A stretch of DNA of 24,034 nt from a virus: positions 1 through 24,034 of IMG/VR virus record IMGVR_UViG_3300041403_000969. One strand, written 5' to 3'. Position 1 is the stretch's first letter. Each line of letters opens with the position of its first letter. Below, in pieces: positions 3,509 through 24,034 of this stretch. The notes beneath the pieces are model-generated. The model saw nothing but the letters and a program-made list of their open reading frames with translations, had not been told where the DNA came from and did not search any database. Both the position numbers and the translations under genes were made by a program.

Positions 3509-5837
3509 AGCAGACTTAAATGTAAGGTTAGGTGTCATAACTCGGAATTTCGAGAAGAGCCTAAAGCGTGCAGAGCGTTCTTTGCGCCGTTCAGCGCAGC
3601 AGATGAGCGATATAGGTTCTAGCTTGACTGCTGCGGTGTCCCTGCCTGTTGCAGGGGTTGGCGTTGCATCTTTGAGGGCGGCGGGAGATATTGAGGCGTT
3701 GGAAAAGGGCTTAAAAGCTATTTTGCCACCCTCAGCTAGTGTTTCTGATGAGCTTGAAAGATTAAGGAGAATATCAGAGTTGCCAGGGCTTGGTTTTGAG
3801 CAAGCAGTACAGGGTTCAGTTAGGCTGCAATCTATCGGCTTAAACGCTGACCAATCTGCTGCATCACTTGAGGCATTTGGTCGGATTGTTGCGCTAACAG
3901 GTGGAGGCGCGGAGAAGCTAGATAGTGTTGTCAATCAGTTCACACAGATAAACTCGAAAGGCAAGTTATTAGCTGAAGACCTTAATGTTATCAGAGAAAA
4001 CGCCTCAGGTTTCAATATCGCCTTGCAGGATGCTTTTGGCACTACCAATATTGAGGCTATCCGGGAAACAGGCATAAGCACCGGAGAATTTACAAAGCGG
4101 ATAGTCGAAGCAGTACAACAAAGCAAGGTATTTCAGGAGGTTCAGGGCGGCTTATCAAATAGCTTTGAAAACGCGCGAGTATCTGTTCGGTTGTTCTTGT
4201 CTGAATTAGGCAAAGAAATAAACAGGCTTTTTGATGTTCAGGGAGCAACAGAGCAATTCAGCCTAGCCTTAGGCAGGCTCAGTGCTGCCTTCAAGTCGCT
4301 CGATGACGAACAAAAGAAGAACATTATAAGGTTTGCAGCGCTTGCTGCTGCTGTTGGCCCGGCACTAATCATATTTGGTAAGCTGCTTACTATCCTCAGG
4401 TTTGTGCCAATTGCACTGACTGCGATATTAGGGCCGTTGAAATTGCTTACATCTGGGTTCTTGGTTGCATCGCGGGTGTTTACGATTGTAGCAATCAGGG
4501 GCAAAACTCTTGCTGTTGCGCTTCGCACGGTTGGCGCTTCGTGGCTTACTGCTGCCGCTCCTGTAGTCGGTGTTATCGCTGGTATTGCTGCTGTTGCAGG
4601 CGTCTTTTTGTTTGTCACTAAGAACGCAGAGGCTTTTGAGGCACGGTTCACTAATATCTTCATCAAAATCAAAACAAGGGTATTAGAGCAAATCAACAGG
4701 CTTATCGACGGCTTAAACCCGTTGCTCGGCGCTGTAGGGCTTGAGATTGAACGGGCAAAAATTGAGCCTCAGGACCTTGTTGATGAGCCTAAATTTCAAT
4801 CCTTCTCTGAGTTCATCGGCAGCGTTAAGGATGACTTGGTTGACCTTGTACCTGGGCTAGGCAGTGCAGCAGAAGGGTTTGGCAAGCTCAAAGAAGCAGT
4901 GTTTGGAGGCGGTGACAGCGCTGGCAGTGCAGACTTAGGCATCAAAGGGGCTTTCGATAATTTTACCGGGCTGCCGGGGCAGGAAACGGGGGGCAGCGGT
5001 GGTGGTTCTTCGATTACTGATAGAGCTAAAGAAATAAATAAGTCGATTGCCGATATAAATGATGAAATAGACAAAGAGCTTAGAAAATCTATATTTCTAA
5101 GCAGGGAGTTTGGTGTGTCATTACAAGGTATAGCGTCAGGCACTTCTTTGCTAGGTTTAAGGGCTGCAAGAGAAAATATAGACGAAGTAAATAATGCATT
5201 AGAGCAAACAAAAGTAAAAACAGAAGGCCCTGACCCGTTAGGTCTTGTAAACACATTCGGGTTACCACAACAAATTGTCGAAAATGTCGTCGCTGGCTTT
5301 GATAACGTCAGAAAAGGCGTTGATACAGTAGTTGCGCAATCAGAACAGGTTCTTGCTGCTGTAGCGCTTGTTAGGGAGACAATCACAGCACCCTTTGAGG
5401 ACTTCTTTACTACCCTTGTTGAGGGCGGCAAAAATGCGTTTGGCCAATTCGCTAAGACATTAGGGCAGACGGTGAAAAAGATTATTGCAGACCTGCTCAG
5501 CGCTATTGCTGTCGCTGCTGTCTTAGCGCTTATATTAGGGCCGATTCTCGGCGGTGGCACCTTCGCCTCACAGTTCGGCACGCTACTAAAGGGCGGCGGC
5601 GGCATTGGCTCTATTTTTGCAGGGATTGTGGGCCTTGCACAGGGCGGCATTGTCCCATCCGGCTACCCGAACGACACCTACCTTGCACGCCTTAGCTCAG
5701 GGGAGGCTGTTATCCCGCTGAACCGGCTTAACAGTATGCTCGATATGGGCGGTGGGCAGATGGTAGCAGATACGGTAATCAGGGGCGAGGATATTGTTCT
5801 TTCGTACAACCGCGCAAGCAAAACACTAGGACGGTAA
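3501..5837 (+). CDS. Phage tail tape measure protein
   Basis: A 778-residue protein that sets tail length and is ejected with the DNA. The N-terminal 240 residues contain the tape-measure domain (EALEKGLKAILP, AAGDIE, then NQFTQINSKGKLLAEDLNVIRE and FENARVSVRLFLSELGKEI). Three strongly hydrophobic stretches lie at about residues 276-332, 346-373 and 662-687, as expected for membrane-inserting segments. The C-terminus has the typical motif GLAQGGIVPSGYPNDTYLAR followed by LSSGEAVIPLNRL. A stretch at about 5010-5260 is AT-richer than its surroundings, suggesting local exchange. It starts inside the end of the chaperone gene and ends in TAATG with the next gene. Confidence 0.92.
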   Translation: MARADLNVRLGVITRNFEKSLKRAERSLRRSAQQMSDIGSSLTAAVSLPVAGVGVASLRAAGDIEALEKGLKAILPPSASVSDELERLRRISELPGLGFEQAVQGSVRLQSIGLNADQSAASLEAFGRIVALTGGGAEKLDSVVNQFTQINSKGKLLAEDLNVIRENASGFNIALQDAFGTTNIEAIRETGISTGEFTKRIVEAVQQSKVFQEVQGGLSNSFENARVSVRLFLSELGKEINRLFDVQGATEQFSLALGRLSAAFKSLDDEQKKNIIRFAALAAAVGPALIIFGKLLTILRFVPIALTAILGPLKLLTSGFLVASRVFTIVAIRGKTLAVALRTVGASWLTAAAPVVGVIAGIAAVAGVFLFVTKNAEAFEARFTNIFIKIKTRVLEQINRLIDGLNPLLGAVGLEIERAKIEPQDLVDEPKFQSFSEFIGSVKDDLVDLVPGLGSAAEGFGKLKEAVFGGGDSAGSADLGIKGAFDNFTGLPGQETGGSGGGSSITDRAKEINKSIADINDEIDKELRKSIFLSREFGVSLQGIASGTSLLGLRAARENIDEVNNALEQTKVKTEGPDPLGLVNTFGLPQQIVENVVAGFDNVRKGVDTVVAQSEQVLAAVALVRETITAPFEDFFTTLVEGGKNAFGQFAKTLGQTVKKIIADLLSAIAVAAVLALILGPILGGGTFASQFGTLLKGGGGIGSIFAGIVGLAQGGIVPSGYPNDTYLARLSSGEAVIPLNRLNSMLDMGGGQMVADTVIRGEDIVLSYNRASKTLGR

Positions 5838-13937: not shown

Positions 13938-14279
13938 ATGAACAGGATGAACGATTTTTTTGACGCGCTGGAAGGGCTTGGTTTTAGGCTTGCGGATTTT
14001 GTCGCAGGCATGGCAGGAGGGATAGTGCATATGTTGATAGACAACTCAGAGAAAAGCATACTGCACCGCGCATTGAACGTGCTTGCAGGGGCTGTAACAG
14101 CGGCTTACATCACGCCGCTTGTTGCGTACTACCTGAGTATTGATGAAGCTTTTGAGCGTGCGTTGGCGTTCCTGATAGGCAGCATCGGGCTAAGGTTGAT
14201 GGATAAGGTGTTGGAGTTCATCGAAAAGAACGACATACCGACAATAATTAGACTCTTAATCTTCAAAAAACGAAAATAA
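13938..14279 (+). CDS. Putative phage holin
   Basis: A 113-residue membrane protein with hydrophobic segments at about residues 18-34, 44-66 and 74-90 and a very basic C-terminus ending FKKRK. The middle segment NVLAGAVTAAYITPLVAYYL is characteristic of LydA-like/phage_holin families that oligomerise to open the inner membrane. Size, topology and basic tail are all holin-like. It lies at the end of the structural genes, just before a secreted protease. The endolysin that would use it is on the opposite strand at 18361-18999. A 24-base gap separates it from the previous gene. Confidence 0.68.
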   Translation: MNRMNDFFDALEGLGFRLADFVAGMAGGIVHMLIDNSEKSILHRALNVLAGAVTAAYITPLVAYYLSIDEAFERALAFLIGSIGLRLMDKVLEFIEKNDIPTIIRLLIFKKRK

Positions 14280-14461
14280 TGCAGACTTACATCGCAACAA
14301 TCGCAGTGCCTGCCGCTTGGTTTGCAGGCGACCGGATTGTACAATTCGAGTTTGAATATCCGAAGGGCAAGCCGGTGACACATGAGGTCATTCAGCAGGC
14401 AGCACGAAAAGAAAAGCGCTGGAAGAAGTTTAGCGCCATTTCTGCAATACCTAAAAACTAA
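14279..14461 (+). CDS. Small hypothetical phage protein
   Basis: A 60-residue protein whose ATG overlaps the holin stop (TAATG). It is basic, with a beta-rich first half (TYIATIAVPAAWFAGDRIVQ) and a helical second half (EVIQQAARKEKRWKKFSAIS). No signal peptide or obvious membrane helix is present. Close coupling to the holin gene suggests co-expression at lysis time. Function not recognised. Confidence 0.5.
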   Translation: MQTYIATIAVPAAWFAGDRIVQFEFEYPKGKPVTHEVIQQAARKEKRWKKFSAISAIPKN

Positions 14462-14464
14462 GAA

Positions 14465-16090
14465 ATGAAGAATCTACTGATGCTGTTACTGACAGCAGTT
14501 ACTTTTACGCTCTTTGCACAGCCTGTGCCGGATGAGTATTCAAATGAGTACAAGCGCATTGAGCGCTTCATTCAGGAGAACGAAGGTCCGGGCAAGGTCT
14601 TCTTGGACCCGATTGAGCAGATACCAATGATACCATCGCTTGCCACTGCGGATGCAAATGGCAATTGGGCGTATGATTACTACCGTGTAGCTCAGAATGA
14701 GGCGTGGATTAAGGAGCGCATTAAGCGCAAGGTTGCAGTCTTTGTGTTCGATACAGAAGGCGAGGCAGGGCACAAAAGCCTTGAGGACTTTGCATGGCCA
14801 GAGAAAGATAAAATCTTTACCGGAGAGCCTGCAAGCGCAAAGCACGGGCATGGCATACACGTAGGCACCTGCATTGCAGGCAAGCACGAGTTTAACTACA
14901 AACTAGGGCCTGCATCGGTGTTAGGCGATAACCTGAAGCTCATCTTTTATAAGGTGCTGCGAAAGGAGGGCTACGGTTATACTAATCAGATTGTCACAGG
15001 CATCGAGACAGGCACAGCAGAAGCAAAGAAGCTGATTGATGATGGTTGGTTTGTCATCTTCAACTTTTCGCTAGGTAGTCAATCTGTTAACGAGCAGTTC
15101 AACACCGCTATCGAGAAAGCAGAAGATGCAGGAGTGCTTGTTTTTGCTGCGGCCGGCAATAACGGGCAAAACTTTATCGGCACACCAGCGAATGGCAAAA
15201 GTGCGCACGCTATTGGGGCAATTAACAACTCAGGCACAATTGCAGGCTTCAGCAATTACGGGCCTCAGCTCTATATGTCAGGAGCAGGCGTTCGGGTGTA
15301 CGGTGCCTGGCTGAATGGCGGTTATGCTGAACTGTCAGGCACTTCGATGGCATCGCCTACACAGGCAGCAATAGCGGCTATTGTTGGCGCTACGTCAAAT
15401 GCCACTGCAAAGCAGGTGAGCAACTGCCTGCGGGCTAACGCGGTGGGGCTAGGCCCTGACGGATGGGACGAGAAATACGGGTACGGCGTTAATATCCTGA
15501 CAGCATTGAAGGATGTGAAGCCGGAAAGCTACAGCGATGAGCATAACGGCAACCCTGATACGCCTAATGACGATGAGCCGGATAATCCTGACGAACCCGA
15601 CGAACCGGATGACCCAGGTGATGACGAACCGGACGAACCAGATCAACCGGAGAAAGACGAGCGGGCAATCGTTGTCGAGATGGCTGATGTTTACCCGGTG
15701 ATGTGGAAGCCATACGGGGCGGGCAAGTTCAGGACAGACGAAGTGCAAATTGTTGTCAAGTACAGGACAAAAGAATACGCTGAAGACGCTGTTGAGGCAA
15801 TTACGCTAGGCACTGGTAAGTTTTTCACGAACCGGGCATTTATCCTAAAGCAGACAGATGATGTGATTGATATGACGTTTTGGGTGCGGCACTTCTACGA
15901 GATGTTGATGCGCCGGGCTGGCTACAAAGTGACAATCGAGCTAATTACGACTGAAGTGGACGGCAAAACGGTCAGCCTTGACAAAAAGCGAGGGACTGCA
16001 CTTTCTAATATCCGCAGGATGTTGAGCAGTATTAGCACGTTGACTTTTGCGGAGAACACAATCGAGCAAAAAATCATTTCAAAAAACTAA
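14465..16090 (+). CDS. Secreted subtilisin-family (S8) serine protease
   Basis: A 541-residue protein with a signal peptide (MKNLLMLLLTAVTFTLFA, cleavage before QP) and a complete S8 triad: Asp96 in FVFDTEG, His129 in GHGIHVGT (variant of HGTHVAG), Ser294 in GTSMASP, and the oxyanion Asn232 in AAAGNNG. A roughly 40-residue Asp/Glu/Pro linker (about 363-397) follows the catalytic domain, then an unrecognised C-terminal domain (about 400-541) that may bind a target. No type-IX sorting domain is evident. It is embedded in the late operon three bases after the previous gene, so it is phage-expressed. Likely roles are cleavage of surface proteins, processing of the exported fibre, or aid in lysis; all are inference. 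Confidence 0.88.
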   Translation: MKNLLMLLLTAVTFTLFAQPVPDEYSNEYKRIERFIQENEGPGKVFLDPIEQIPMIPSLATADANGNWAYDYYRVAQNEAWIKERIKRKVAVFVFDTEGEAGHKSLEDFAWPEKDKIFTGEPASAKHGHGIHVGTCIAGKHEFNYKLGPASVLGDNLKLIFYKVLRKEGYGYTNQIVTGIETGTAEAKKLIDDGWFVIFNFSLGSQSVNEQFNTAIEKAEDAGVLVFAAAGNNGQNFIGTPANGKSAHAIGAINNSGTIAGFSNYGPQLYMSGAGVRVYGAWLNGGYAELSGTSMASPTQAAIAAIVGATSNATAKQVSNCLRANAVGLGPDGWDEKYGYGVNILTALKDVKPESYSDEHNGNPDTPNDDEPDNPDEPDEPDDPGDDEPDEPDQPEKDERAIVVEMADVYPVMWKPYGAGKFRTDEVQIVVKYRTKEYAEDAVEAITLGTGKFFTNRAFILKQTDDVIDMTFWVRHFYEMLMRRAGYKVTIELITTEVDGKTVSLDKKRGTALSNIRRMLSSISTLTFAENTIEQKIISKN

Positions 16091-16094
16091 GACA

Positions 16095-16490
16095 ATGAAA
16101 GAGACTAGAGAACTTCTAACCTTCACTGCGCAGGGCATCAACGCGGGCTACACCATCGCAGCGGATGGCAAAGTGGATTTTGCAGATTTGGGCGCACTTG
16201 TACCGCTCGTCCTTGCCGGGCAGCAGGGCATCGGAGGCGTTAAGCTGATCGGCAGCGAGCAGGCAGGTATCGGCGACCGGGAAAAGGACGAGATCCGCAA
16301 GGCGATGGCTGAGAAAATGACATCAGTGCCACGCGAGTTGCAGGGTGATTGGCTTGATGCTGCTATTGGTATTCTGTCTGTCTACCGCCTCGGCCGGGCT
16401 GCTGCACAGTCTGAAGCAGCAAAGACGATTTTTGACCGCATCCGCAAGGGCGAAAAGCTTGAGGAGATTGAAAAGGCTTACAACTTGTAA
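16095..16490 (+). CDS. Hypothetical phage protein, last gene of the late operon
   Basis: ATG 16095, four bases after the protease stop, gives 131 residues; a longer in-frame start at 16047 would lie inside the protease gene. The N-terminal half looks like a phage membrane-associated or structural small protein (QGINAGYTIAADGKVDFADL, then LGALVPLVLAGQQGIGG), and the second half is helical and charged (IFDRIRKGEKLEEIEKAY). Not recognised. A strong rho-independent terminator starts 24 bases downstream. Confidence 0.6.
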   Translation: MKETRELLTFTAQGINAGYTIAADGKVDFADLGALVPLVLAGQQGIGGVKLIGSEQAGIGDREKDEIRKAMAEKMTSVPRELQGDWLDAAIGILSVYRLGRAAAQSEAAKTIFDRIRKGEKLEEIEKAYNL

Positions 16491-16514
16491 GCGAATGCAA
16501 CGACAATGACCGAT

Positions 16515-16550
16515 AACCCCTTGCATCTGCACTAGCAGGCAGGGGGTTTT
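16515..16550 (+). terminator. Rho-independent terminator of the late operon
   Basis: AACCCCTTGC pairs with GCAGGGGGTT over ten positions (one T-G wobble); a two-base bulge (AT) is followed by an inner stem CTGC/GCAG and an ACTA loop, then a short T-run (TTTT with the stem end) and CGC. It lies 24 bases after the last late gene and 25 before the phosphoesterase gene. Confidence 0.85.
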
Positions 16551-16575
16551 CGCTAATACCTAATACGCTCTTACT

Positions 16576-17733
16576 ATGCGCCCTAGACTGACCGGAGACG
16601 AGGAAAAATGGCAACGCCTGATTGATGCTGTGCGCAAGATTGGCATTGACAACGTAGTTGATGCGATGGATGAGGCGGGCGGCGATTGGATGCTTCGACT
16701 GACTAAGCAGACGCTCGACGGCAATGGCAACGTCATAAGCGAGGTGTACAGCCGTCAAAACAGCACAAGCACACCAACGGAGGGGATGAGGCTTAAACGT
16801 CTGTCAAAGGCTCCTAATGGCGGTGAATGGCGCATATATGAGCAGTCGCATGACATGGCACTAGCCTATAGCGAGCTTGTGCAGGAATTGAGCCTACAGG
16901 CACGCCCATTTCCGCCTGCTGAGATACCGGACAGCTTGCAGCAGGGTTACTGCCTTATGCCGATGCTGACAGATCATCACTTCGGGAAGATCGCGTTTGG
17001 GTACAAGGGCGATTCATGGAGCTTGGATGAGGCGCGGGAGGTATGGCAAAAGGCGTTGGATTACTACCTGTACAAAGCGCAGGACCTGCCGATAGCTCAG
17101 GTGTTGCTGCCGATTGGCAACGACCTGTTGCACACCAACAGCGATACAAATACTACCAAGCGGGGCACACCAATGGAGGTTAGCGAAAGCTTTGGCAATT
17201 TATACAAATACGTTCGGGACGTAGTGGTAGCAGGTATCTTAGCTTGTGCAGAGATTGCGCCTGTTCAGGTGATAATGGTGCCTGGCAATCACGATGAGGA
17301 CGCGGTGCTGCGGCTAGGGGATTACCTAGAGGGGCTGTTCGACAGGCATCCGGTAGTTCAGGTCAACAACAAGCAATACCGCCGTAAATACTTCAAATTC
17401 GGAGCGACAGGGATAGGGTTCACGCATGGTGAAAAGGTTAAGCCACGCGATCTGCACGGGGCTTTCTCGAATGATATGCCCTCAATTTTCAGCAGCGTAA
17501 AGTATCGCTACTTTTTTGTCGGTCACCTGCATAAGAACGCAAGTGCAAGGCTGAGTATATATGATGAAAGGAGGGATGAATATATGGGCACGCAGGTAGA
17601 GATATGCCCTTCGCTTTGCCCGACCGATAAGTGGCACTTTGACAACAACTTCACCGGCAATCAGCGCAGCAGCAAGGCGTATCTTTTTTGCCCGGATAAG
17701 GGGAGGGTTGCAGAATGGTATTTTAATCTTTAA
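16576..17733 (+). CDS. Calcineurin-like metallophosphoesterase
   Basis: A 385-residue protein with the metallophosphoesterase motifs in order: D133-x-H135 in TDHHFGK, GND at 181-183, GNHD at 237-240, H284 in FTHGEK, and GHLH at 316-319, which bind a two-metal centre. The GND variant of the usual GD motif is noted. Residues 1-110 form a separate N-terminal region that is mostly helical with a basic patch and could bind nucleic acid or a partner. SbcD/Mre11-type nuclease or phosphatase activity is possible; phage relatives are usually only called phosphoesterases. The gene is isolated between two terminators, so it needs its own promoter, which I could not identify. Confidence 0.85.
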   Translation: MRPRLTGDEEKWQRLIDAVRKIGIDNVVDAMDEAGGDWMLRLTKQTLDGNGNVISEVYSRQNSTSTPTEGMRLKRLSKAPNGGEWRIYEQSHDMALAYSELVQELSLQARPFPPAEIPDSLQQGYCLMPMLTDHHFGKIAFGYKGDSWSLDEAREVWQKALDYYLYKAQDLPIAQVLLPIGNDLLHTNSDTNTTKRGTPMEVSESFGNLYKYVRDVVVAGILACAEIAPVQVIMVPGNHDEDAVLRLGDYLEGLFDRHPVVQVNNKQYRRKYFKFGATGIGFTHGEKVKPRDLHGAFSNDMPSIFSSVKYRYFFVGHLHKNASARLSIYDERRDEYMGTQVEICPSLCPTDKWHFDNNFTGNQRSSKAYLFCPDKGRVAEWYFNL

Positions 17734-17766
17734 CTTAGCAGCGTATGAGAGTTATAGCAGTTAGTG

Positions 17767-17798
17767 AAAGCCCCGCGCAAAAGAGCGTTTGGGGCTTT
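17767..17798 (+). terminator. Rho-independent terminator after the phosphoesterase gene
   Basis: AAAGCCCC pairs perfectly with GGGGCTTT (17767-17774 with 17791-17798); an inner CGC/GCG pair with an AAAAGA loop and a TTT bulge lengthens the hairpin. A T-rich stretch (CTTGTTATTGCTTTTT) follows. It also sits just beyond the end of the converging minus-strand gene at 17803 and may serve both sides. Confidence 0.8.
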
Positions 17799-17802
17799 CT
17801 TG

Positions 17803-18015
17803 TTATTGCTTTTTGCGCACAACTATCTCCCATCCGATATGCGCTAACATTTTATTGAATAGGCGTAACTTACTTGTAATAGGTGATACAATGCGCCTAA
17901 AGCTTGCATTACCGTTGTTTGGGTTTTTGCCCATGTCAGAGTACCACTGCTTGTAATCGACTGATAAGCGGCAGTAGTCTTCAAATTCGGTTATGTTGTC
18001 GGTTGGTAGGTTCAT
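17803..18015 (-). CDS. Small hypothetical protein, possible nucleic-acid binder
   Basis: A 70-residue protein. The C-terminal segment (SKLRLFNKMLAHIGWEIVVR, then KKQ) resembles the end of small helix-turn-helix regulators ('RLLxALGxELVV'), but the central recognition helix is not clear. It has Tyr/Trp-rich middle residues (DYKQWYSDMGKNP). The start lies immediately after a minus-strand hairpin with a U-tract (18018-18054), so expression probably depends on readthrough or regulated termination. It is the last gene of the leftward arm. Function unknown. Confidence 0.5.
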   Translation of the reverse strand: MNLPTDNITEFEDYCRLSVDYKQWYSDMGKNPNNGNASFRRIVSPITSKLRLFNKMLAHIGWEIVVRKKQ

Positions 18016-18017
18016 AG

Positions 18018-18054
18018 AAAAAGATTTAGCCCCGTTGATGTTATCGCTGGGGCT
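18018..18054 (-). terminator. Minus-strand terminator or attenuator before the 18015 gene
   Basis: On the minus strand AGCCCC (18054-18049) pairs with GGGGCT (18033-18028) around a 15-nt loop, followed by AAATCTTTTT, a U-rich run reaching 18018. The ATG of the next gene is only three bases away. It ends the transcript of the 67-residue gene, or acts as an attenuator. Confidence 0.65.
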
Positions 18055-18063
18055 TGGTTGATG

Positions 18064-18267
18064 TTAAAATTGATATTTAAAAACAGCCTGCTCAAGTCCT
18101 GTTAATACTTTGCATTCTTTTGGTTGATTTGGGATGTGAAACCTTCTGTTAAAGTAGTCAATGTATAATGTAGCATGGTAAAGTTTTCCATATTTACGGT
18201 ACAAAACTTTAGCATTAAAATCTTTATCAGAATCACCGAAATAATTTATTTTCTCTATTGTTATCAT
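18064..18267 (-). CDS. Small AT-rich hypothetical protein
   Basis: I place the start at ATG 18267, giving 67 residues; the longer in-frame start at 18327 would lie on the -33 element of its own promoter. The protein is basic and aromatic, with predicted strands ITIEKINYFGDSDK, VLYRKYGKLYHATLYIDYFN and a short final helix. It looks like a small beta-rich accessory protein. DNA here is much richer in A+T than the flanking genes, consistent with a recently acquired accessory gene ('moron'). It has its own promoter and terminator. Function not recognised. Confidence 0.58.
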   Translation of the reverse strand: MITIEKINYFGDSDKDFNAKVLYRKYGKLYHATLYIDYFNRRFHIPNQPKECKVLTGLEQAVFKYQF

Positions 18268-18288
18268 TGTAATTGCTTTTGTTGTTAT
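18268..18288 (-). promoter_or_regulatory. A/C-rich translation leader
   Basis: The bases before ATG 18267 read AACAACAAAAGCAATTACA on the minus strand. There is no Shine-Dalgarno sequence. The pattern is shared with the leaders of the genes starting at 20688, 20914 and 22192. Confidence 0.5.
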
Positions 18289-18296
18289 TGATAGTA

Positions 18297-18327
18297 CAAA
18301 TATACTATGCAATACATTACCATGCAA
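18297..18327 (-). promoter_or_regulatory. Bacteroidota-type promoter (TTG, 20 bp, TATATTTG)
   Basis: On the minus strand TTG (18327-18325) is followed after exactly 20 bases by TATATTTG (18304-18297), a full match to the -7 consensus TAnnTTTG used by the Bacteroidota primary sigma factor. The expected transcript starts about 10-25 bases before ATG 18267. The position decides the start of the 67-residue gene. Confidence 0.72.
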
Positions 18328-18360
18328 GCTTTTTGATAAAAAAATAGTAAAATAAAACTG

Positions 18361-18999
18361 TTAAAGTTTAACCCACCCCGCACAAAACCGAAAATAACAC
18401 CACTTCAAACGTTCCACGAAATTCACATCCATCAGCAGTAGCGCATCTTCGGTATTATCAAAAAATAGGTTCTCAGCTAAGATAGCCGTGCAGCGCGTCT
18501 GTGTCAGCACCTTGAACTTATTTTCAAAGTCGGCATCGCCATCTGATACGTCTGAGCGCATCGTTATCATTCCTCCAAACTCCTGCTGTACTTCATCCCA
18601 CAACTGCTGCCCTATCGCATCGCTGCGTGTTTCTCCGGGTGAGGTATGCACCTGCCAGCCTCTAACGGTGCTGTCGTGCGCGTTGGCGTGGATGCTGATG
18701 AAAAGAACGTCATGCAGTTGGTTCAGCCAGTTAGCGTAGCTTATGCGCTCGCCCAGGCTTACATCTTCATACCAGCGCTCAAAGGGGATGGTGTACAAAA
18801 AAGGGATGCCAGAAGCAGCTAATACAGCCCCTAGCTCAAGCGCGAAAAATCTATTCCATGCGCCTTCGTAGAACCATCCATCATGGTGCATAAAATGCCC
18901 TTCGTGGTACGCCATCTTGTCCGGTGCGGTGGTGTACTCGCAGGTGTCAGGATAGATGCCGCCGTGGCCGGGGTCTAATAAGATTAGCTTTCTTTTCAT
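18361..18999 (-). CDS. N-acetylmuramoyl-L-alanine amidase (endolysin, Amidase_3)
   Basis: A 212-residue zinc amidase that cuts the bond between MurNAc and L-Ala in peptidoglycan. Zinc ligands and catalytic Glu are visible: His12 in LLDPGHGG, Glu45 in FYEGAWN, His104 in ISIHANA, and Glu176 in ILAENLFF. The insert YEDVSLGERISYANWLNQL is the usual 'R-x-x-x-A-N' helix of the family. There is no signal peptide and no separate wall-binding domain, typical of phage endolysins of Gram-negative-type hosts; delivery would need a holin. It is on the minus strand with the replication genes, about 4 kb from the holin-like gene. A large inverted repeat (19013-19050) lies just upstream. Confidence 0.9.
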   Translation of the reverse strand: MKRKLILLDPGHGGIYPDTCEYTTAPDKMAYHEGHFMHHDGWFYEGAWNRFFALELGAVLAASGIPFLYTIPFERWYEDVSLGERISYANWLNQLHDVLFISIHANAHDSTVRGWQVHTSPGETRSDAIGQQLWDEVQQEFGGMITMRSDVSDGDADFENKFKVLTQTRCTAILAENLFFDNTEDALLLMDVNFVERLKWCYFRFCAGWVKL

Positions 19000-19012
19000 G
19001 CTTGCAAGTTAA

Positions 19013-19050
19013 GCAACCCTGTAAGTGTTTGCAAACGGTTACGGGGTTGC
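19013..19050. repeat. 38-bp imperfect inverted repeat upstream of the amidase gene
   Basis: GCAACCCTGTAA (19013-19024) pairs with TTACGGGGTTGC (19039-19050) over twelve positions with one T-G wobble. The centre contains the perfect palindrome GTTTGCAAAC. There is no U-tract on either strand, so a terminator is unlikely; an operator or other protein-recognition dyad, or a structured 5' region, is possible. Confidence 0.7.
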
Positions 19051-19073
19051 GGGTGTTGTGTAGTTATGCACCA

Positions 19074-19283
19074 TTAGGCGTTAGTATCTATTTCCTTTGG
19101 ATTAGCAGGGCATCCATAGTTATAATTTCGTTGACATCGCCAATCTTCTTTTTTGTGCCCCTTTTCTCCATAACGATTGAAGTTATGAGGTTGGAAACAT
19201 TGAAATTTTGGACAATCTGTACATACAACAAGTACGTCTTTATTGCCTTCGTATGTTTTTGTTTTAACTCGAATCATTGCCAT
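19074..19283 (-). CDS. Small Cys-rich, probably zinc-binding protein
   Basis: A 69-residue protein with five cysteines at residues 21, 24, 29, 50 and 58 (CTDCP, FQC, RCQ, GCP) and His33/His43, which suggests a zinc ribbon or similar small metal-binding fold. The N-terminus is basic (MAMIRVKTKTYEGNK), compatible with nucleic-acid binding. About 75 bases without a gene separate it from the upstream 57-residue gene, and I see no clear promoter there. Function unknown. Confidence 0.58.
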   Translation of the reverse strand: MAMIRVKTKTYEGNKDVLVVCTDCPKFQCFQPHNFNRYGEKGHKKEDWRCQRNYNYGCPANPKEIDTNA

Positions 19284-19358
19284 AGTTAATATCTTTAAAG
19301 CGCTACAAAGGCGGTGAATGAATAATATTAGTTTCTTACCCGTTTCTCTGTCACCCGC

Positions 19359-19532
19359 TTACTTATCGTGCAGATCTTCTAACTCCTTCAACCTCTTTTT
19401 CTTCCCCTTCAACCCTTCACGATAAGCTTTCGCAAGCCCATGATTACCGCAGTCCTCAGCTTGCTGCGCACAGGCTGTTTCGCGCTTGATCTCCATGCGC
19501 AAATGCCGAATTTCAAATACTTCGTCTTTCAT
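19359..19532 (-). CDS. 57-residue charged helical protein
   Basis: ATG 19532 overlaps the stop of the 122-residue gene (ATGA), and the frame reads 57 codons to TAA at 19361-19359. It starts MKDEVFEIRHLRMEIKRETA, has a central Cys-rich turn (CAQQAEDCGNHG) and ends in a Lys/Glu-rich helix (GKKKRLKELEDLHDK), so it is probably an all-helical hairpin. The start/stop overlap is the main evidence that it is translated. Function unknown. Confidence 0.55.
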   Translation of the reverse strand: MKDEVFEIRHLRMEIKRETACAQQAEDCGNHGLAKAYREGLKGKKKRLKELEDLHDK

Positions 19533-19897
19533 TGATTGATATTTTTAAGGCGCTTCATTTCTTCAAGAATATCGTACAACGCTTCCATGAAAATAATGTC
19601 ATCTAGCCAAGGGTTTTGCTTGAGATGATGATACGTCGCATCCCAGGACGATAGCGCGATGGCATCATCTTCATCCGTCAGGATAAACGGCTCGCCCTGA
19701 ATCCAGTCAAGCGGCTCGTGCGCGTGGATGTAATGCTCATCTACGCCTCCAACTTCGCCGTAATATCCAAAGTTAATAGGATCTAGCTGCCTTGATATGT
19801 CGCGGTACAACTCGCTTTCTGTGTCAAAAATAGGCGCGTCCGGGTTGTTCTTCCAGTTGCGCTCAATTGCGGCTTCGATAAATTCTTGAGTTATCAT
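19529..19897 (-). CDS. Hypothetical acidic phage protein
   Basis: A 122-residue acidic protein with many Asp/Glu and aromatic residues (EPLDWIQGEPFILTDEDDAI, DIIFMEALYDILEEMKRLK). No metal or nucleotide motif is recognised. Its acidity and small size would fit a DNA-mimic or inhibitor, but this is speculation. It overlaps its neighbours by four bases at both ends (ATGA with the genes at 19532 and 20139), so it belongs to a coupled block of small early genes. Confidence 0.6.
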   Translation of the reverse strand: MITQEFIEAAIERNWKNNPDAPIFDTESELYRDISRQLDPINFGYYGEVGGVDEHYIHAHEPLDWIQGEPFILTDEDDAIALSSWDATYHHLKQNPWLDDIIFMEALYDILEEMKRLKNINQ

Positions 19898-20139
19898 AAG
19901 TCATCAATGATTGAGTCTCGATAATCTACCTTGTCAGCGTAGAATGTTGAGAAGTTAATAATAGATTCTTGAAGTGTTTCTGTGAAAACGTTTAGCCCTT
20001 TTGCCATCCACCCTTCTTCGTGCAGAGTAAACCAATGCTCGAAGCCGTTGCGCCAAATGACATGCGCTCTGCTGTATTCGATTTTGTAGCGGTAAGACAG
20101 CTCAGGGCTATCTACCAAGATGTAAGGGTCTATTGTCAT
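19894..20139 (-). CDS. Hypothetical phage protein
   Basis: An 81-residue acidic, aromatic-rich protein (SYRYKIEYSRAHVIWRNGFE, HWFTLHEEGWMAKG), with a predicted beta-hairpin followed by a C-terminal helix. It is translationally coupled on both sides by ATGA overlaps. Not recognised; part of the run of small accessory genes downstream of SSB. Confidence 0.58.
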   Translation of the reverse strand: MTIDPYILVDSPELSYRYKIEYSRAHVIWRNGFEHWFTLHEEGWMAKGLNVFTETLQESIINFSTFYADKVDYRDSIIDDL

Positions 20140-20339
20140 CGCTTCTTTTTTCTCCGAAACCCTATGCGCACCGCATCAGGTGGCAGCAGGTTTTTAGGAT
20201 CCGAGCAGTTAAGGTATATGGTTTTCTTTTCCTCCGAATACCAGGCAACAAAAAAGCAGGTGGCGCCAGTTGCTTCGCCGCCCTTGACAATTTCGGTGCC
20301 TGGTTCGGTTTGTATGTCGCTGATGCGCAGCGCTACCAT
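20136..20339 (-). CDS. Small hypothetical protein with basic tail
   Basis: A 67-residue protein with beta-rich content (GATCFFVAWYSEEKKTIYLN) and a very basic end (GFRRKKKR). Its ATG overlaps the end of the 26-residue membrane peptide (ATGGTAG), and its stop overlaps the next ATG. Could bind nucleic acid through the tail; function unknown. Confidence 0.55.
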   Translation of the reverse strand: MVALRISDIQTEPGTEIVKGGEATGATCFFVAWYSEEKKTIYLNCSDPKNLLPPDAVRIGFRRKKKR

Positions 20340-20413
20340 ATTGCTACAATTGCGGCTACGATAAGCAGCCAGATCAACACTTCAGTTGCTGCTGATAAGT
20401 TGCTCCTTACCAT
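20333..20413 (-). CDS. 26-residue single-pass membrane peptide
   Basis: ATG 20413 lies inside the last codons of the upstream 93-residue gene (ATGGTAA), and the frame ends TGG TAG at 20333, itself overlapping the next gene's ATG. The peptide starts MVRSNLSAATEVL and continues as a hydrophobic helix IWLLIVAAIVAIW to its end. It exactly fills the otherwise empty space between two genes, with stop/start overlaps on both sides, which strongly suggests translation. Proximity to another membrane protein suggests they act together. Function unknown. Confidence 0.52.
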   Translation of the reverse strand: MVRSNLSAATEVLIWLLIVAAIVAIW

Positions 20414-20688
20414 GTCCCGCAGTTATAGACCGGGATGCGCTCGCCTGTCGCCCTGTCGATTAGAGTATCGCAAGCAATACGTTCGTGCTTAATCGGCTGA
20501 TAGCCTTGCAGCACGTCAGGGGAGTACGTTGTACGGTTGCAAGACAGGAGCAGGCTAAGTGCTGCTAGGATTGCGATACCTGCAATTAGCCAGACTAGAT
20601 AGCCTGCCGTTACAGTCCGTGTGCGATGCTTGCGGGAGTAGTAATCGTCCTCCCAATTGTTGTCGGGGTTCATGTGGTTCATGCTCAT
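20407..20688 (-). CDS. Small single-pass membrane protein with lipobox-like motif
   Basis: A 93-residue protein with a 25-residue polar N-terminus (including Asn, Asp, His and Arg), a hydrophobic helix at about residues 26-50 (GYLVWLIAGIAILAALSLLL), and then SCNRTT. LLSC resembles a lipobox, but the long polar N-terminus would be unusual for a lipoprotein, so a plain N-in, C-out anchor is equally likely. The remainder ends with a Cys-containing tail (YNCGTW). It is adjacent to a 26-residue membrane peptide. A spanin or superinfection role can be imagined but is not supported by sequence. An A/C-rich leader precedes it. Confidence 0.58.
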   Translation of the reverse strand: MSMNHMNPDNNWEDDYYSRKHRTRTVTAGYLVWLIAGIAILAALSLLLSCNRTTYSPDVLQGYQPIKHERIACDTLIDRATGERIPVYNCGTW

Positions 20689-20711
20689 TGTTGATTGGTT
20701 TTGGTTGTTAA
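20689..20711 (-). promoter_or_regulatory. A/C-rich translation leader
   Basis: Minus-strand bases before ATG 20688 begin TTAACAACCAAAACCAAT and continue CAACA. Same pattern as the leaders at 18268, 20915 and 22193; no Shine-Dalgarno. Confidence 0.55.
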
Positions 20712-20713
20712 GA

Positions 20714-20914
20714 TTATTCTTCTATTTGTTCTTCTATTTTGTACACATAGCGGTCGTTTGGCACATCTGCCCAATGCTCGTAAAACTTTTTTAATGCATC
20801 TAAGATGTCAATGCCCGTAAAAGTATCACAGCCTCCGCCGTTTGTAGTTTTGACCCAATAGACATCAAATGGTTTTTCGTCTTTAGATGGGTGCCTCGTT
20901 AGCAAATCCTTCAT
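20714..20914 (-). CDS. Small hypothetical protein
   Basis: A 66-residue acidic protein with a beta-hairpin N-terminal half (KPFDVYWVKTTNGGGCDTFT) and a helix (GIDILDALKKFYEHWADV). The pattern resembles small phage proteins with an alpha-beta fold, but no function is recognised. It lies between SSB and the membrane protein genes and is preceded by an A/C-rich leader that overlaps the SSB stop. Confidence 0.55.
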   Translation of the reverse strand: MKDLLTRHPSKDEKPFDVYWVKTTNGGGCDTFTGIDILDALKKFYEHWADVPNDRYVYKIEEQIEE

Positions 20915-20938
20915 ATTGTTGTTAGTTTTGATTGTTAA
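20915..20938 (-). promoter_or_regulatory. A/C-rich translation leader
   Basis: Minus-strand sequence TTAACAATCAAAACTAACAA leads into CAAT and ATG 20914. It overlaps the SSB stop codon. Part of the shared leader family. Confidence 0.55.
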
Positions 20939-21375
20939 AAAGGTAATTCATCATCAGGGGTGTCACTATCTTTTGACGGAGCTTTTGCAGTATCTTCAGT
21001 GACTTTTGCAGTAGGTGTCGCCGATGGCTCAGAAGTTTGTGCAGCCTCCCGGCTATCCAAAATCAAAAACTCGTCAACTACCACCTCGGCAGAAGTGCGC
21101 TGTATGCCGTCTTTTTCCCATTTTCGGTACGTCATCTTACCTCGCACCGCTACCTGCATCCCTTTTTTGGCAAGGTTGTTAATGATGCCTGCAAGCTGCC
21201 GCCAGGCAACGCAGGTGTGCCACTGCGTTTCTTCTACTTTCTCGCCTTGCTTGTTCTTGTAGCTCTCGGACGTTGCCAAACTGAAGCGTACTACCTCAGC
21301 GCCTGATTCGAGGGTGCGGTGTTCAGGGTCTTGGCCTAAGCGGCCGATTAGTAGGATTTGGTTTCTTAGTCGCAT
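20935..21375 (-). CDS. ssb: Single-stranded DNA-binding protein
   Basis: A 146-residue SSB. Residues 1-105 form the OB fold with the familiar signatures NQILLIGRLGQDPEHRTLES, VVRFSLATSESYKNKQGEK, TQWHTCVAWRQLAGIINNLA and KKGMQVAVRGKMTYRKWEKDG. A Ser/Thr/Ala-rich flexible linker leads to an acidic tip ending DDELPF, the interaction peptide that recruits replication and repair partners. It binds ssDNA at replication forks and supports the phage replication arm. The gene starts directly after the stop of the DUF3223/HNH-like gene, so both are probably on one transcript. Confidence 0.95.
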   Translation of the reverse strand: MRLRNQILLIGRLGQDPEHRTLESGAEVVRFSLATSESYKNKQGEKVEETQWHTCVAWRQLAGIINNLAKKGMQVAVRGKMTYRKWEKDGIQRTSAEVVVDEFLILDSREAAQTSEPSATPTAKVTEDTAKAPSKDSDTPDDELPF

Positions 21376-21981
21376 TTACTTTGCTTTTAAAATTCGCAAA
21401 TTAGCCTCCTTGGTTACAGCCCTAAGGTGGGTATTTGCATTATGAAAAGTAATAAAATCTTCTTTGACTCTTTGATCTACAAAATACCTGCCAAGCTCAT
21501 TGTCTTTTGGTTTATTTATTGCAGCAAAAAGAGTATTTAATCCATGCTTCTTGACGTATTCTTTGAATAGATCTGCAAAGGTCAGATCGTAATGGTCAAT
21601 ATGGGTTTGCCCTTTTATTAGGAGTTCATTTGTAATAGGGCATTTGTCTACTCCAAAATTAACCTTTGAGTGAGCATGTATCATTATTGGCTCTATTGCA
21701 TGCCGGCAGGCTTGAATGACAAGCGCTCTTTTAGTCGGCGCACCACTTATGCTGACGTGAAAAGATATGTCTGTTTTAGTGCCATCCTTCCTTAATATAC
21801 CAAAGCAATAATCACCGTACTTGGTCTGCATTTTTATGATGTCAGCAACTCCAACGCCCTTTTTTTGCTGCCAACTTGGATGGTTTTGAAACAGCCGATA
21901 AAGCCAAATTTTATCATCTCTTGTTAATGACGATTTTTTCAGCAATTCTCCGGCTATTCTTTTTTGCTCCTTTTTCGTCAT
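21376..21981 (-). CDS. DUF3223 (DCL-like) protein with HNH-like C-terminal region
   Basis: From ATG 21981 (one base after the previous stop) this is 201 residues; a longer start at 22041 would overlap the upstream gene. Residues about 30-80 match the DUF3223/DCL pattern: FQNHPSWQQKKGVGVADI, then YCFGILRKDGTKTDISFHVS. The C-terminal part has CPIT at 114-117, HIDHYD at 127-132 and FHNANTHLRAVTKEANLR at 179-196, resembling the H-x-D-H and terminal N-L-x-x-x-x-x-x-x-N pattern of HNH nucleases. Nuclease activity is plausible but not proven; some cysteines expected for zinc are absent. DNA is AT-rich relative to SSB, suggesting independent acquisition. Confidence 0.65.
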   Translation of the reverse strand: MTKKEQKRIAGELLKKSSLTRDDKIWLYRLFQNHPSWQQKKGVGVADIIKMQTKYGDYCFGILRKDGTKTDISFHVSISGAPTKRALVIQACRHAIEPIMIHAHSKVNFGVDKCPITNELLIKGQTHIDHYDLTFADLFKEYVKKHGLNTLFAAINKPKDNELGRYFVDQRVKEDFITFHNANTHLRAVTKEANLRILKAK

Positions 21982-21982
21982 A

Positions 21983-22192
21983 TTAAAATTGCTTTTGATT
22001 ATCAATGTCGTATAATTCTTGCGCTTGCATGTACACCTCAACGGGGATGCCTTCAGGGTGCTCTCCTTGCGGCATAGGCACGTAGGCTGATGTTCTGTAA
22101 CTGCCTACGTAAACGCGGGCTACTACTATGCGGATGCCTTCGTCAGTGTGCCATTCTGCTTTGTAGTGTTGGGTTACTAGTTCGTCTGTCAT
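21983..22192 (-). CDS. Small hypothetical protein
   Basis: I use ATG 22192 (69 residues) because the alternative upstream start at 22231 lies inside the terminator hairpin. The protein is beta-rich (GIRIVVARVYVGSYRTSAYV) with a Pro/Glu turn (PMPQGEHPEGIP) and a C-terminal helix. No family recognised. It is preceded by the leader TTAACAACAAAACA, and by a hairpin with U-tract, so it is either expressed by readthrough or from a promoter I cannot see. Confidence 0.55.
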   Translation of the reverse strand: MTDELVTQHYKAEWHTDEGIRIVVARVYVGSYRTSAYVPMPQGEHPEGIPVEVYMQAQELYDIDNQKQF

Positions 22193-22206
22193 TGTTTTGT
22201 TGTTAA
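22193..22206 (-). promoter_or_regulatory. A/C-rich translation leader
   Basis: TTAACAACAAAACA immediately precedes ATG 22192. It follows directly on the U-tract of the terminator hairpin. Fourth member of the shared leader pattern. Confidence 0.55.
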
Positions 22207-22242
22207 AATAAAAAAGCCCAGTGGCCGTCACTCCACTAGGCT
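22206..22242 (-). terminator. Strong minus-strand terminator hairpin with a kissing-capable loop
   Basis: On the minus strand AGCCTAGTGG (22242-22233) pairs with CCACTGGGCT (22224-22215), ten pairs with one T-G wobble, closing an 8-nt loop AGTGACGG. A U-rich tract, TTTTTATTTT, follows to about 22205. It would end helicase transcripts or a small RNA. The loop is exactly complementary to part of the loop of the upstream hairpin at 22265-22301. Confidence 0.85.
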
Positions 22243-22311
22243 AATTATGGCTTATTGCCAATGCGGTTCTTTGCTGTAGTGACGGCAGACAGTAAAGAAC
22301 CCCGTTTCATG
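22206..22311 (-). ncRNA. Putative structured small RNA with complementary hairpin loops
   Basis: Minus-strand hairpin 1: GGTTCTTT (22301-22294) pairs with AAAGAACC (22272-22265), then an A/C mismatch, then CTGT/ACAG, with the 11-nt loop CTGCCGTCACT. Hairpin 2 is the terminator with loop AGTGACGG. CCGTCACT of loop 1 is a perfect 8-nt complement of loop 2, so the loops can kiss. A promoter-like TTTG, 20 bp, TACATTAG lies just upstream (22315-22346). The RNA would be about 100 nt with promoter and terminator. It could instead be the 3' UTR of the helicase mRNA acting as a switchable terminator. No known RNA family is recognised. Confidence 0.45.
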
Positions 22312-22314
22312 CTG

Positions 22315-22346
22315 CTAATGTACGTTGTAATTTTGTATTATGCAAA
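22315..22346 (-). promoter_or_regulatory. Candidate promoter for the small RNA
   Basis: On the minus strand TTTG (22346-22343, in the last codons of the helicase gene) is followed after 20 bases by TACATTAG (22322-22315), which matches five of the six fixed positions of TAnnTTTG. The spacing equals that of the promoter at 18297-18327. Weaker than that one. Confidence 0.4.
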
Positions 22347-23822
22347 CCCTTCTGCTTTTTTTCTTCGCACCAAATGCGGAAACCGCCCCTGATTATGATG
22401 CCACCAGCCCTTCTTCCAGCCCATCAGCTCCCGGAAGCGGTCAGCGTCTTCGTAGTTGTCTATTAGGTTGTGCAGCACCCAAAACGGCTTAATGGCTTTT
22501 GCTTTCGCCATTGCGGCAAGCTCTTCAAGGCTTTCTGCCTGCTTTGCTATCTGCAACCGTTCGCGCTTAGGGACTTCGACAAGCTGAGCGATGCGCTCTT
22601 CAAGTTCTTCTTCTTCGCTTTTGACAAACTCGTAGCCGCATTCAGGGCAGGACCTGACGGCAGTGTGCATCATGTACTGGCATTCAGGGCATTCTTTGAC
22701 CGGGCTTGCCTCCTGCTTTTTGCTCCGCTTTTTTGGCGGGTGCAGGCTCCATTCGCGGTCAGTCTCCCACAGGCCATGCTCGCGGGTATTGTCGCCAAAA
22801 TCTAGAATGAAGAACTCCTGCTTTTTGCCGGGCACCACCCGGCTTCCACGGCCTACCATCTGCAAGAACAGCGGCAGGCTTTTGGTTGCGCGGTAGAGGA
22901 TAACCACCTCCGTCTCCGGCGCATCAAAGCCAGTCGTAAAAAGCCCTACATTACAGAGGATTGCTCCGGGTGTATTGCGATACCAAGCAAGCGTCTTTGT
23001 GCGCTCAAAGCTGCGGGCAGTGCCGTCCAGGTGCTTAGCAGGCAATCCAGCTGCCTGTAGCTGCTCGCACATCTCAATAGATCCCTTGATGTTAGAAGCG
23101 AACAGTAATGCTTTTTTGCCGGGCGTAATCCTGTTGTAGTTTTCAATAACGCCAGCCCATACCTTTTGGCGGCTGTACTCCCTGCCCATCGCTTCGGTAT
23201 CGTAGTCCCTGCCCTTCATCTTCACCTGGCTCAAGTCTACCGGGTTGTTGAACGTGCGAGGATAAGCAAGGTAGCCCTGCTCAATCAGGCTGCTGATGGT
23301 TACAGGCTCAATGATAGTATCGTAATCCTCAATAAGCGGCCGCATGCCCCTGTCTCGGTAAGGCGTTGCAGTAGCACCAATCACAATAGTCCTGTCTGAG
23401 ATGTGCTCAAACAATCGATTGAAAACCTGTTTGTGCGCCTCATCAAAAATGATGACGTCAAAGCGCTTCATCAGGTTCTGATAGCGTGCATCTTTCTTCA
23501 GCCTCCGCTTAAGCGTTTCAGCCATCGCTGTATATAGGTTGGGGTTCAGAAAGTCAGGCTCTTTGCCTGGCTTGATCTGCTCCGGCTTCATCCCGAACGC
23601 ATTGAGCGCCCCGCCTGCTTGCATCAACAGTTCTGTCCTGTCAGTGACAATAAGCACTGTGCTGCCTTTCTCCATCGCGCTCTTGCAGATTGCAGTGAAG
23701 GTTATCGTCTTACCTGCTCCGGTAGGTTTGCAAAGGATAAGGCGCTTATTGCCCTCGATGATTGCTCTTTTCGCTTCGTTGATTGCCCGCTCTTGATAGG
23801 GGCGTAGGGTTATTTGTTTCAT
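22338..23822 (-). CDS. Superfamily 2 DEAD/DEAH-box helicase with zinc ribbon
   Basis: A 494-residue SF2 helicase. Motifs in order: LRPYQERAI (Q-like, near residue 6), Walker A PTGAGKT at 33-39, Walker B DEAH at 127-130, motif III GATATP at 149-154, motif V near GLFTTGFDAPE (293-303), and motif VI QMVGRGSR at 321-328. A zinc ribbon follows (C378, C381, C392, C395 in CPECQYM and CPECGYE), then a helical C-terminal region ending with a basic RRKKAEGFA. This arrangement is common in phage replication or recombination helicases of the UvsW/RadD-like type. It starts in ATGA overlap with the upstream gene and ends before the hairpin region. Confidence 0.93.
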   Translation of the reverse strand: MKQITLRPYQERAINEAKRAIIEGNKRLILCKPTGAGKTITFTAICKSAMEKGSTVLIVTDRTELLMQAGGALNAFGMKPEQIKPGKEPDFLNPNLYTAMAETLKRRLKKDARYQNLMKRFDVIIFDEAHKQVFNRLFEHISDRTIVIGATATPYRDRGMRPLIEDYDTIIEPVTISSLIEQGYLAYPRTFNNPVDLSQVKMKGRDYDTEAMGREYSRQKVWAGVIENYNRITPGKKALLFASNIKGSIEMCEQLQAAGLPAKHLDGTARSFERTKTLAWYRNTPGAILCNVGLFTTGFDAPETEVVILYRATKSLPLFLQMVGRGSRVVPGKKQEFFILDFGDNTREHGLWETDREWSLHPPKKRSKKQEASPVKECPECQYMMHTAVRSCPECGYEFVKSEEEELEERIAQLVEVPKRERLQIAKQAESLEELAAMAKAKAIKPFWVLHNLIDNYEDADRFRELMGWKKGWWHHNQGRFPHLVRRKKAEGFA

Positions 23823-24034
23823 CGTTCTACTCGTTTTGGTGCTGCATTCATGCCTTCAATCCTGATGTCTTCAACCTGCTCAATGCCGCTGAGCTGTATT
23901 TCATACTCGATGACGTAATCAGTAAGCAAGGCTTTCAAGCTCGTAGCGTTGGGCCACTGCCTGAAGTACCCGGCTGCTGACAGGTAGCAGGTGAAGCTAT
24001 CCCTGTCAAGCCATGCTTCGCGCTGATCGTCAGT
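23819..24034 (-). CDS. C-terminal part of an unknown phage gene (partial)
   Basis: The frame is open from the window edge to TGA at 23821-23819, overlapping the helicase ATG (ATGA), and gives the last 71 residues. Visible content: an aromatic helical stretch (REAWLDRDSFTCYLSAAGYF), RQWPNATSLKALLTDYVIEY, then beta-like EIQLSGIEQVEDIRIEGMNA. No domain is recognised. The coupling to the helicase suggests a role in replication or recombination. Confidence 0.6.
   Translation of the reverse strand, partial: TDDQREAWLDRDSFTCYLSAAGYFRQWPNATSLKALLTDYVIEYEIQLSGIEQVEDIRIEGMNAAPKRVER

Follow-up and report, generated by a model that had tools for sequence, protein, structure and literature searches.

What do two hairpins with complementary loops do when they lie just behind a phage helicase gene? 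The question arises at one locus of a complete virus record of 24,034 bases, the whole of which we analyzed and call the window. The original prediction proposed either a self-kissing or dimerizing small RNA or a terminator regulated by loop-loop pairing. Sequence comparisons strongly support pairing between the two loops, and they point to an undescribed loop-loop RNA switch in many Bacteroidota viruses, including this one.

The element is a leader on the minus strand (22346-22210) with a Bacteroidota-type promoter, a first hairpin (H1), a small middle hairpin (H2), and a 10-bp intrinsic terminator (H3). The helicase gene (Pfam ResIII/DEAD/Helicase_C) is directly upstream on the same strand, and the promoter of the leader overlaps its stop codon. 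The features of the leader and of the genes behind it are:

22315-22346, minus strand: putative promoter, from the sequence; TTTG at 22346-22343, a 20-nt spacer, and TACATTAG at 22322-22315
22265-22301, minus strand: hairpin H1, from RNAfold; 8 + 4 bp with a 1x1 mismatch and the 11-nt loop CTGCCGTCACT
22278-22285, minus strand: kissing sequence 1, CCGTCACT, within the H1 loop; exact complement of the entire H3 loop
22248-22260, minus strand: middle hairpin H2, TGGC-AATAA-GCCA, from RNAfold
22215-22242, minus strand: terminator hairpin H3, from RNAfold and a terminator scan; 10 bp with the 8-nt loop AGTGACGG
22225-22232, minus strand: kissing sequence 2, AGTGACGG, the whole terminator loop; complement of 22278-22285
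22210-22215, minus strand: U-tract TTTTTT, from the sequence and the terminator scan
21983-22192, minus strand: first gene after the leader, a 69-aa ORF whose ATG is 18 nt past the U-tract
22041-21376, minus strand: DUF3223 protein (Pfam PF11523), directly before SSB
21375-20935, minus strand: SSB (Pfam PF00436)

When we folded the single strand with RNAfold, we obtained exactly H1, H2, and H3 (-37.5 kcal/mol, z -3.3), and just 1 of 200 shuffles was as stable. The originally predicted coordinates and stems on the minus strand are correct; the middle hairpin (22260-22248) and the nearby ATG had not been described. The arms of H1 are GGTTCTTT (22301-22294), A, and CTGT (22292-22289) on one side of the loop (22288-22278), and ACAG, C, and AAAGAACC (ending at 22265) on the other. 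H1 probably occupies the 5' end of the transcript. The arms of H3 are AGCCTAGTGG (22242-22233) and CCACTGGGCT (22224-22215), with the loop at 22232-22225. H3 has 10 bp, of which 6 are GC, and TTTTTT directly after the stem, as expected for an intrinsic terminator and as also seen in its relatives, and it is the best terminator-like site within 14034-24034. The terminated leader would be an RNA of ~95 nt. A 21-codon ORF, MKRGSLLSAVTTAKNRIGNKP (22245-22310, minus strand), runs from the predicted transcription start across H1 and H2.

The promoter was predicted to have the same spacing as another one at 18327-18297. The 20-nt spacing is indeed identical, but the comparison promoter has a perfect TATATTTG, while the box of the leader, TACATTAG, is imperfect, with one mismatch to TAnnTTTG. 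Boxes of the TAnnTTTG type are found upstream of H1 in most related elements. The leader was also thought to control the genes from SSB onwards, which is slightly off: the small ORF and the DUF3223 protein come before SSB, so that the controlled block beyond the first ORF is 20935-22041 (minus strand). The 69-aa ORF has no match in Pfam, and its protein has no close relative in the viral contigs. Elsewhere in the window (14465-16090, plus strand), a phage protein resembles subtilisin-type serine proteases, as judged from motifs by eye.

All eight bases of the H3 loop are matched in the H1 loop, as claimed, and neither CCGTCACT nor its complement occurs anywhere else in the window. The kissing duplex has a predicted energy of -12.3 kcal/mol. 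On sequence alone, the loop match would accommodate both intramolecular kissing and self-dimerization. We scanned the window with a descriptor that requires a stem of at least 7, a terminator of at least 7, and a loop match of at least 6, and found a single hairpin/terminator pair, with a kiss score of 8. Across 300 dinucleotide shuffles of the window, there were 7 matches of 6-7 and none of 8 (0/300), which bears out the claim that a chance origin is unlikely.

The same order of parts (promoter, H1, H2, terminator, ATG) is present in dozens of other Bacteroidota phage contigs. We scanned related viral loci totaling 807 kb and obtained 11 matches, as compared to 2 in shuffled sequences; 9 of the 11 carry the full layout, and we judged 9 to be real. 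The elements that the scanner found (in L002/L003, L004, L022, L025, L026, L027, L029, and L033) have unrelated loops and stems. For instance, L002 and L003 have the leader before a gene for a VirE-type primase, with loops GTAGCAG/CTGCTAC. Among 18 helicase-encoding viral loci, only L004 has the layout of the window immediately behind the helicase gene, and its loops (GTAGGAG/CTCCTAC) are wholly unlike those of the window. No sequence is conserved between the window, L004, L026, and the VirE group.

We also took the stems of two elements to build a covariance model in which the loops were treated as unpaired. It added elements in L028, L057, L087, L067, and L076, as well as second copies in L025 and L026, and the loops were again complementary. 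Because the loops were not modeled as paired, these matches are an independent confirmation. The kissing codes are GTAGGAGT in L028, GTGGAAAG in L087, AACGACCAA in L067, TCACCAC in L076, and GTAGTAG in the second copies. The two elements within L025 or within L026 have differing codes. More broadly, among 437 non-identical candidates from viral loci with a promoter, a hairpin, and a terminator (some elements were counted twice, under two promoter boxes), 109 had a kiss of at least 7, versus 0.9% with the loops swapped.

H1 and the terminator are found in all of the relatives, H1 with a different sequence each time, and a small hairpin of variable sequence recurs at the position of H2. The promoter is immediately before H1, and an ATG is usually 1-40 nt past the U-tract region. 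This constant placement from promoter to gene start fits the original suggestion of a terminator regulated by loop-loop pairing. The genes behind the leaders vary (VirE-type primases, helicase-methylases, and small proteins of replication regions), but they are often replication genes. An unusual variant in L065 (4805-4934, plus strand) has a 10-nt match, GACTATCCGT/ACGGATAGTC, and a large branched terminator before a helicase-methylase gene.

Cultured phages have the element too. Among the Flavobacterium phages, we found it with the code GTGGAACG in mumin9-1 and snusmum6-1, GTGAGACG in hattifnatt9-1 and filifjonk9-1, GTGAGAAG in morran9-1, and GTAGAGAG in FCV-1; FCL-2 has CATCCAC at the site of FCV-1's element. 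FCOV-S1 has the code GTAGAGA, and mumin9-1 has a second element with a different code (GTCGTCG). Phages from the same two host strains, Flavobacterium LMO6 and LMO9, have at least three codes. Cellulophaga phi10:1 is a weaker case, with a weak H1 and the code GTACGAC. We found no convincing element in P12024S, phi46:1, pippi8-1, or FPSV-S1. The Flavobacterium elements often contain ATG-AAG-TAG or a short ORF in H1. FCV-1 (L307) has two more copies of its kissing 8-mer GTAGAGAG, at 5076 and 24034 (plus strand), where 0.5 are expected per genome; these could be due to chance or could be targets in trans.

A stem-only model (R2) run against ~400 Bacteroidota genomes gave matches of 33-46 bits in 68 of 296 and 46 of 101 genomes. 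Except for a few AT-rich matches, the host loci that we retrieved showed no kissing, and we rejected them as chance pairs of a hairpin and a terminator whose loops are not complementary. The stems by themselves therefore make an unspecific model, and the element seems to be carried by phages. At the gathering score, no Rfam family matched the leader, and relaxed thresholds gave weak matches to unrelated families only, none of them credible. The c4 family (RF01695) did not match. Nor does the leader appear to be a riboswitch or another known Rfam leader, as there was neither an Rfam match nor a conserved core sequence. The exact terminator pattern of the window has no relatives in the viral contigs. 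Because the leader of the window has no close orthologue in the collections we searched, its membership in the class rests on shared architecture. We found no prior description of such an element in the literature (subscription journals were outside the coverage).

Do the two loops change together? The covariation analysis draws on relatives within the class rather than on orthologues of the window's own leader. We took 80 loci with relatives of the VirE-type primase gene of L003. Because MAFFT misaligned the whole diverse set, we used hand-padded and family-wise alignments. Essentially all of the VirE leaders of this type kiss perfectly over 6-9 nt, and their codes are numerous. Within the family, the leaders are nearly identical but the kissing pairs differ, and every code is matched by an exact complement in the loop of the terminator. 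The codes include ATTCCAG, ATTGCAG, ATAGCAG, TTGCGG, TTCCGG, TAACGG, GTCGTAG, GTCGAAG, ATACCAG, TTCGCAG, GTAGGAG, and GGTGGTGC. The sole mismatched kiss of the family is upstream of the VirE-type gene in L276 (GTCGAAG vs. CTACGAC), and is possibly an evolutionary intermediate or a recombinant.

In an alignment of 17 distinct leaders, 100% of the kissing cells are paired, and 3 of the 7 kissing pairs have changed on both sides (UA/AU, GC/CG/AU, and AU/GC). For the kiss and the H3 stem taken together, covariation across these 17 leaders is 0.294, versus 0.131, and none of 500 shuffles reached it. As a control, sliding the partners by 1-3 columns left 20-55% paired (again for the kiss and the H3 stem together). 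On a tree of the downstream genes, all 20 of the scorable kissing changes fell on the same branch in both partners, a figure that is inflated by recombination of whole leaders. The comparison of L230 and L267 is free of this concern because the two leaders are identical except in the loops: a C->G change in loop 1 accompanies a G->C change in loop 2, 58 nt away. The mixed combinations of these loops have predicted energies of -1.2 and -3.7 kcal/mol, versus about -8 kcal/mol for the natural pairs. Taken together, loop-loop complementarity and strict covariation show by computation that there is selection on pairing. At the level of the class, the two loops have passed the covariation test that the original prediction proposed.

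The kissing sites also differ from the stem and the linker in the kind of changes they undergo. We inferred about 3 events per kissing site versus 2.3 in the linker. Counting events that are not fully independent, the kissing sites had 5 transitions and 16 transversions, as compared to 19:0 in the terminator stem (Fisher p = 3e-7) and 40:38 in the linker (p = 0.03). The terminator stem changes by transitions only, which is the route expected through G-U intermediates.

What would such a pairing do? We lean towards attenuation of transcription, in which loop-loop pairing would set the read-through into early or replication operons. The phage promoter would fire, and the nascent RNA would form H1 at its 5' end, then H2, and then the intrinsic terminator, which is placed a few nucleotides ahead of the first start codon. 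Because H1 is fully formed well before the loop of the terminator appears, its own loop can capture that loop, in a kiss of 7-10 bp. Judging from geometry, the recurrent H2 and an H1-H3 spacing of 20-45 nt would leave room for this to happen within one molecule. The pairing would set the frequency of read-through by RNA polymerase into the early or replication genes. From the architecture, the complementarity, and the covariation, all of which were computed, we infer an action on termination by a kiss that would form mainly in cis. The capture may be timed around the synthesis of the 3' arm of the terminator and could delay the terminator or lock it, so that the outcome would be either antitermination or enforced termination. 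A kiss of 7-8 nt is compatible with a closed terminator stem; because the two can coexist, an effect on termination is a matter of inference only. Phages with two leaders of different codes (L025, L026, and mumin9-1) are expected if pairing is leader-specific.

The rate at which the codes change, largely by pair flips, exceeds what a purely cis structure would need, and this favors an additional role in trans. Much like the P4 CI RNA or plasmid RNAI, the released leader of ~95 nt might pair through its loops with nascent leaders of the same code, either as negative feedback on the replication genes or to exclude co-infecting phages that share the code. We regard this reading as a serious rival, though a less likely one. 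The code diversifies as fast as the unpaired linker despite the pairing constraint, and mainly by transversions; a pair flip abolishes cross-pairing in one step; and, as seen at specificity loci, the codes have a scattered distribution across the gene tree. The differing codes of two leaders in one phage, the at least three codes among the phages of LMO6 and LMO9, and the frequent replication genes downstream would fit as well. There are also precedents (PMC4825925): the P4 CI RNA terminates its own replication operon, and in Salmonella IsrK a terminated form acts on a read-through form. On the other hand, pairing within a molecule should outcompete pairing in trans, and the event counts from the tree run too high because whole leaders recombine. 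Furthermore, prophage immunity cannot be the general role, given that the mumin phages reportedly can replicate only lytically (PMC7077304) and that FCL-2 is likewise termed virulent (PMC8092290). A specific form of the trans reading, which we offer as speculation and consider somewhat improbable, is that the two loops form an RNA "password" in the leaders of replication or early genes. Each leader would recognize itself by its hypervariable kissing code, terminated leaders would shut down any other genome that shares their code, and the coordinated pair flips would be driven by selection for orthogonality.

A stand-alone phage small RNA seems unlikely. Here, H1, H2, and the kissed terminator would form a compact, nuclease-resistant RNA with a target in the host or the phage, and the gene behind it would be expressed by read-through or from another promoter. 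The compact structure with its own promoter and terminator, and with H1 directly at the predicted 5' end, is as this reading expects. However, nearly every element directly precedes an ATG in the same direction, and this position favors a leader over a stand-alone RNA. Also, there is no third copy of the kissing 8-mer, as a target in trans, in the window, mumin9-1, or morran9-1, which argues against a phage target through the loops, and a fixed host target is at odds with a fast-changing code.

We think it very unlikely that the leader is a leader-peptide attenuator, with the 21-codon ORF translated from 22310 and the position of the ribosome choosing between H1 and the terminator. The ORF does begin at the predicted transcription start and span H1 and H2, and H1 contains ATG-AAG-TAG or a short ORF in several relatives. 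But neither the length nor the sequence of the ORF is conserved, it is absent from many elements (L002, L004, L022, and the VirE group among them), and it contains no run of regulatory codons. Finally, an ordinary promoter-terminator boundary, with a coincidental loop match or with the repeats as DNA sites for a repressor, has next to no chance of being correct. Intergenic terminators are nothing out of the ordinary, and two 8-mers in inverted orientation could serve as an operator. But none of the 300 shuffles had such a match, and dozens of phages have matching loops in which the sequence changes and the complementarity is preserved, where an operator would preserve the sequence instead; the covariation refutes both versions.

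The attenuator that we propose resembles known systems in part. In ColE1 RNAI/RNAII and the inc RNA of IncI/IncK plasmids, replication genes are controlled by loop-loop kissing between hypervariable complementary loops, and our leaders share the kissing, the hypervariable loops that stay complementary, and the association with replication-gene control. In these plasmids, though, the antisense partner comes from the opposite strand and is automatically complementary, whereas here the loops are 50-60 nt apart on one strand, and it takes two mutations for them to change together; an antisense RNA from the other strand may exist as well. The put sites of phage HK022 are two hairpins early in a phage leader that act on transcription termination, as we propose here; we compare them by description only. 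The put RNAs act in cis and make RNA polymerase ignore terminators further downstream; they are not terminators themselves and are not known for kissing loops. The antisense immunity RNAs P1 c4 and P4 CI (the latter as described in PMC4825925) are similar in that the leader of a phage replication operon has short complementary segments in one transcript, whose pairing is linked to premature termination. The CI RNA is separately processed and pairs with seqA and seqC, while here a 5' hairpin would pair through its loop with the terminator's own loop. Our leader has no Rfam match, c4 included, and such leaders are also found in lytic phages. In IsrK of Salmonella Gifsy-1, a single phage promoter yields a short RNA that ends at a terminator as well as a longer mRNA made by read-through, and the former acts on the latter (PMC4825925); IsrK activates translation, and it is not known to have kissing loops with a covarying code.

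Little is known of how Bacteroidota phages control gene expression, even though their hosts dominate the gut and many aquatic habitats. These leaders appear to be a class of structured RNA that has no Rfam entry and is present in cultured phages. The covariation evidence is unusually strong for a tertiary contact between loops, one of which is that of a terminator. The natural double mutants with flipped pairs provide a ready-made compensatory experiment on RNA contacts that may tune intrinsic termination. The rapid change of the code also raises a question that can be tested, namely whether phages exclude each other by RNA pairing. If the password idea is true, it would be an RNA-only form of incompatibility or exclusion between co-infecting phages, even strictly lytic ones.
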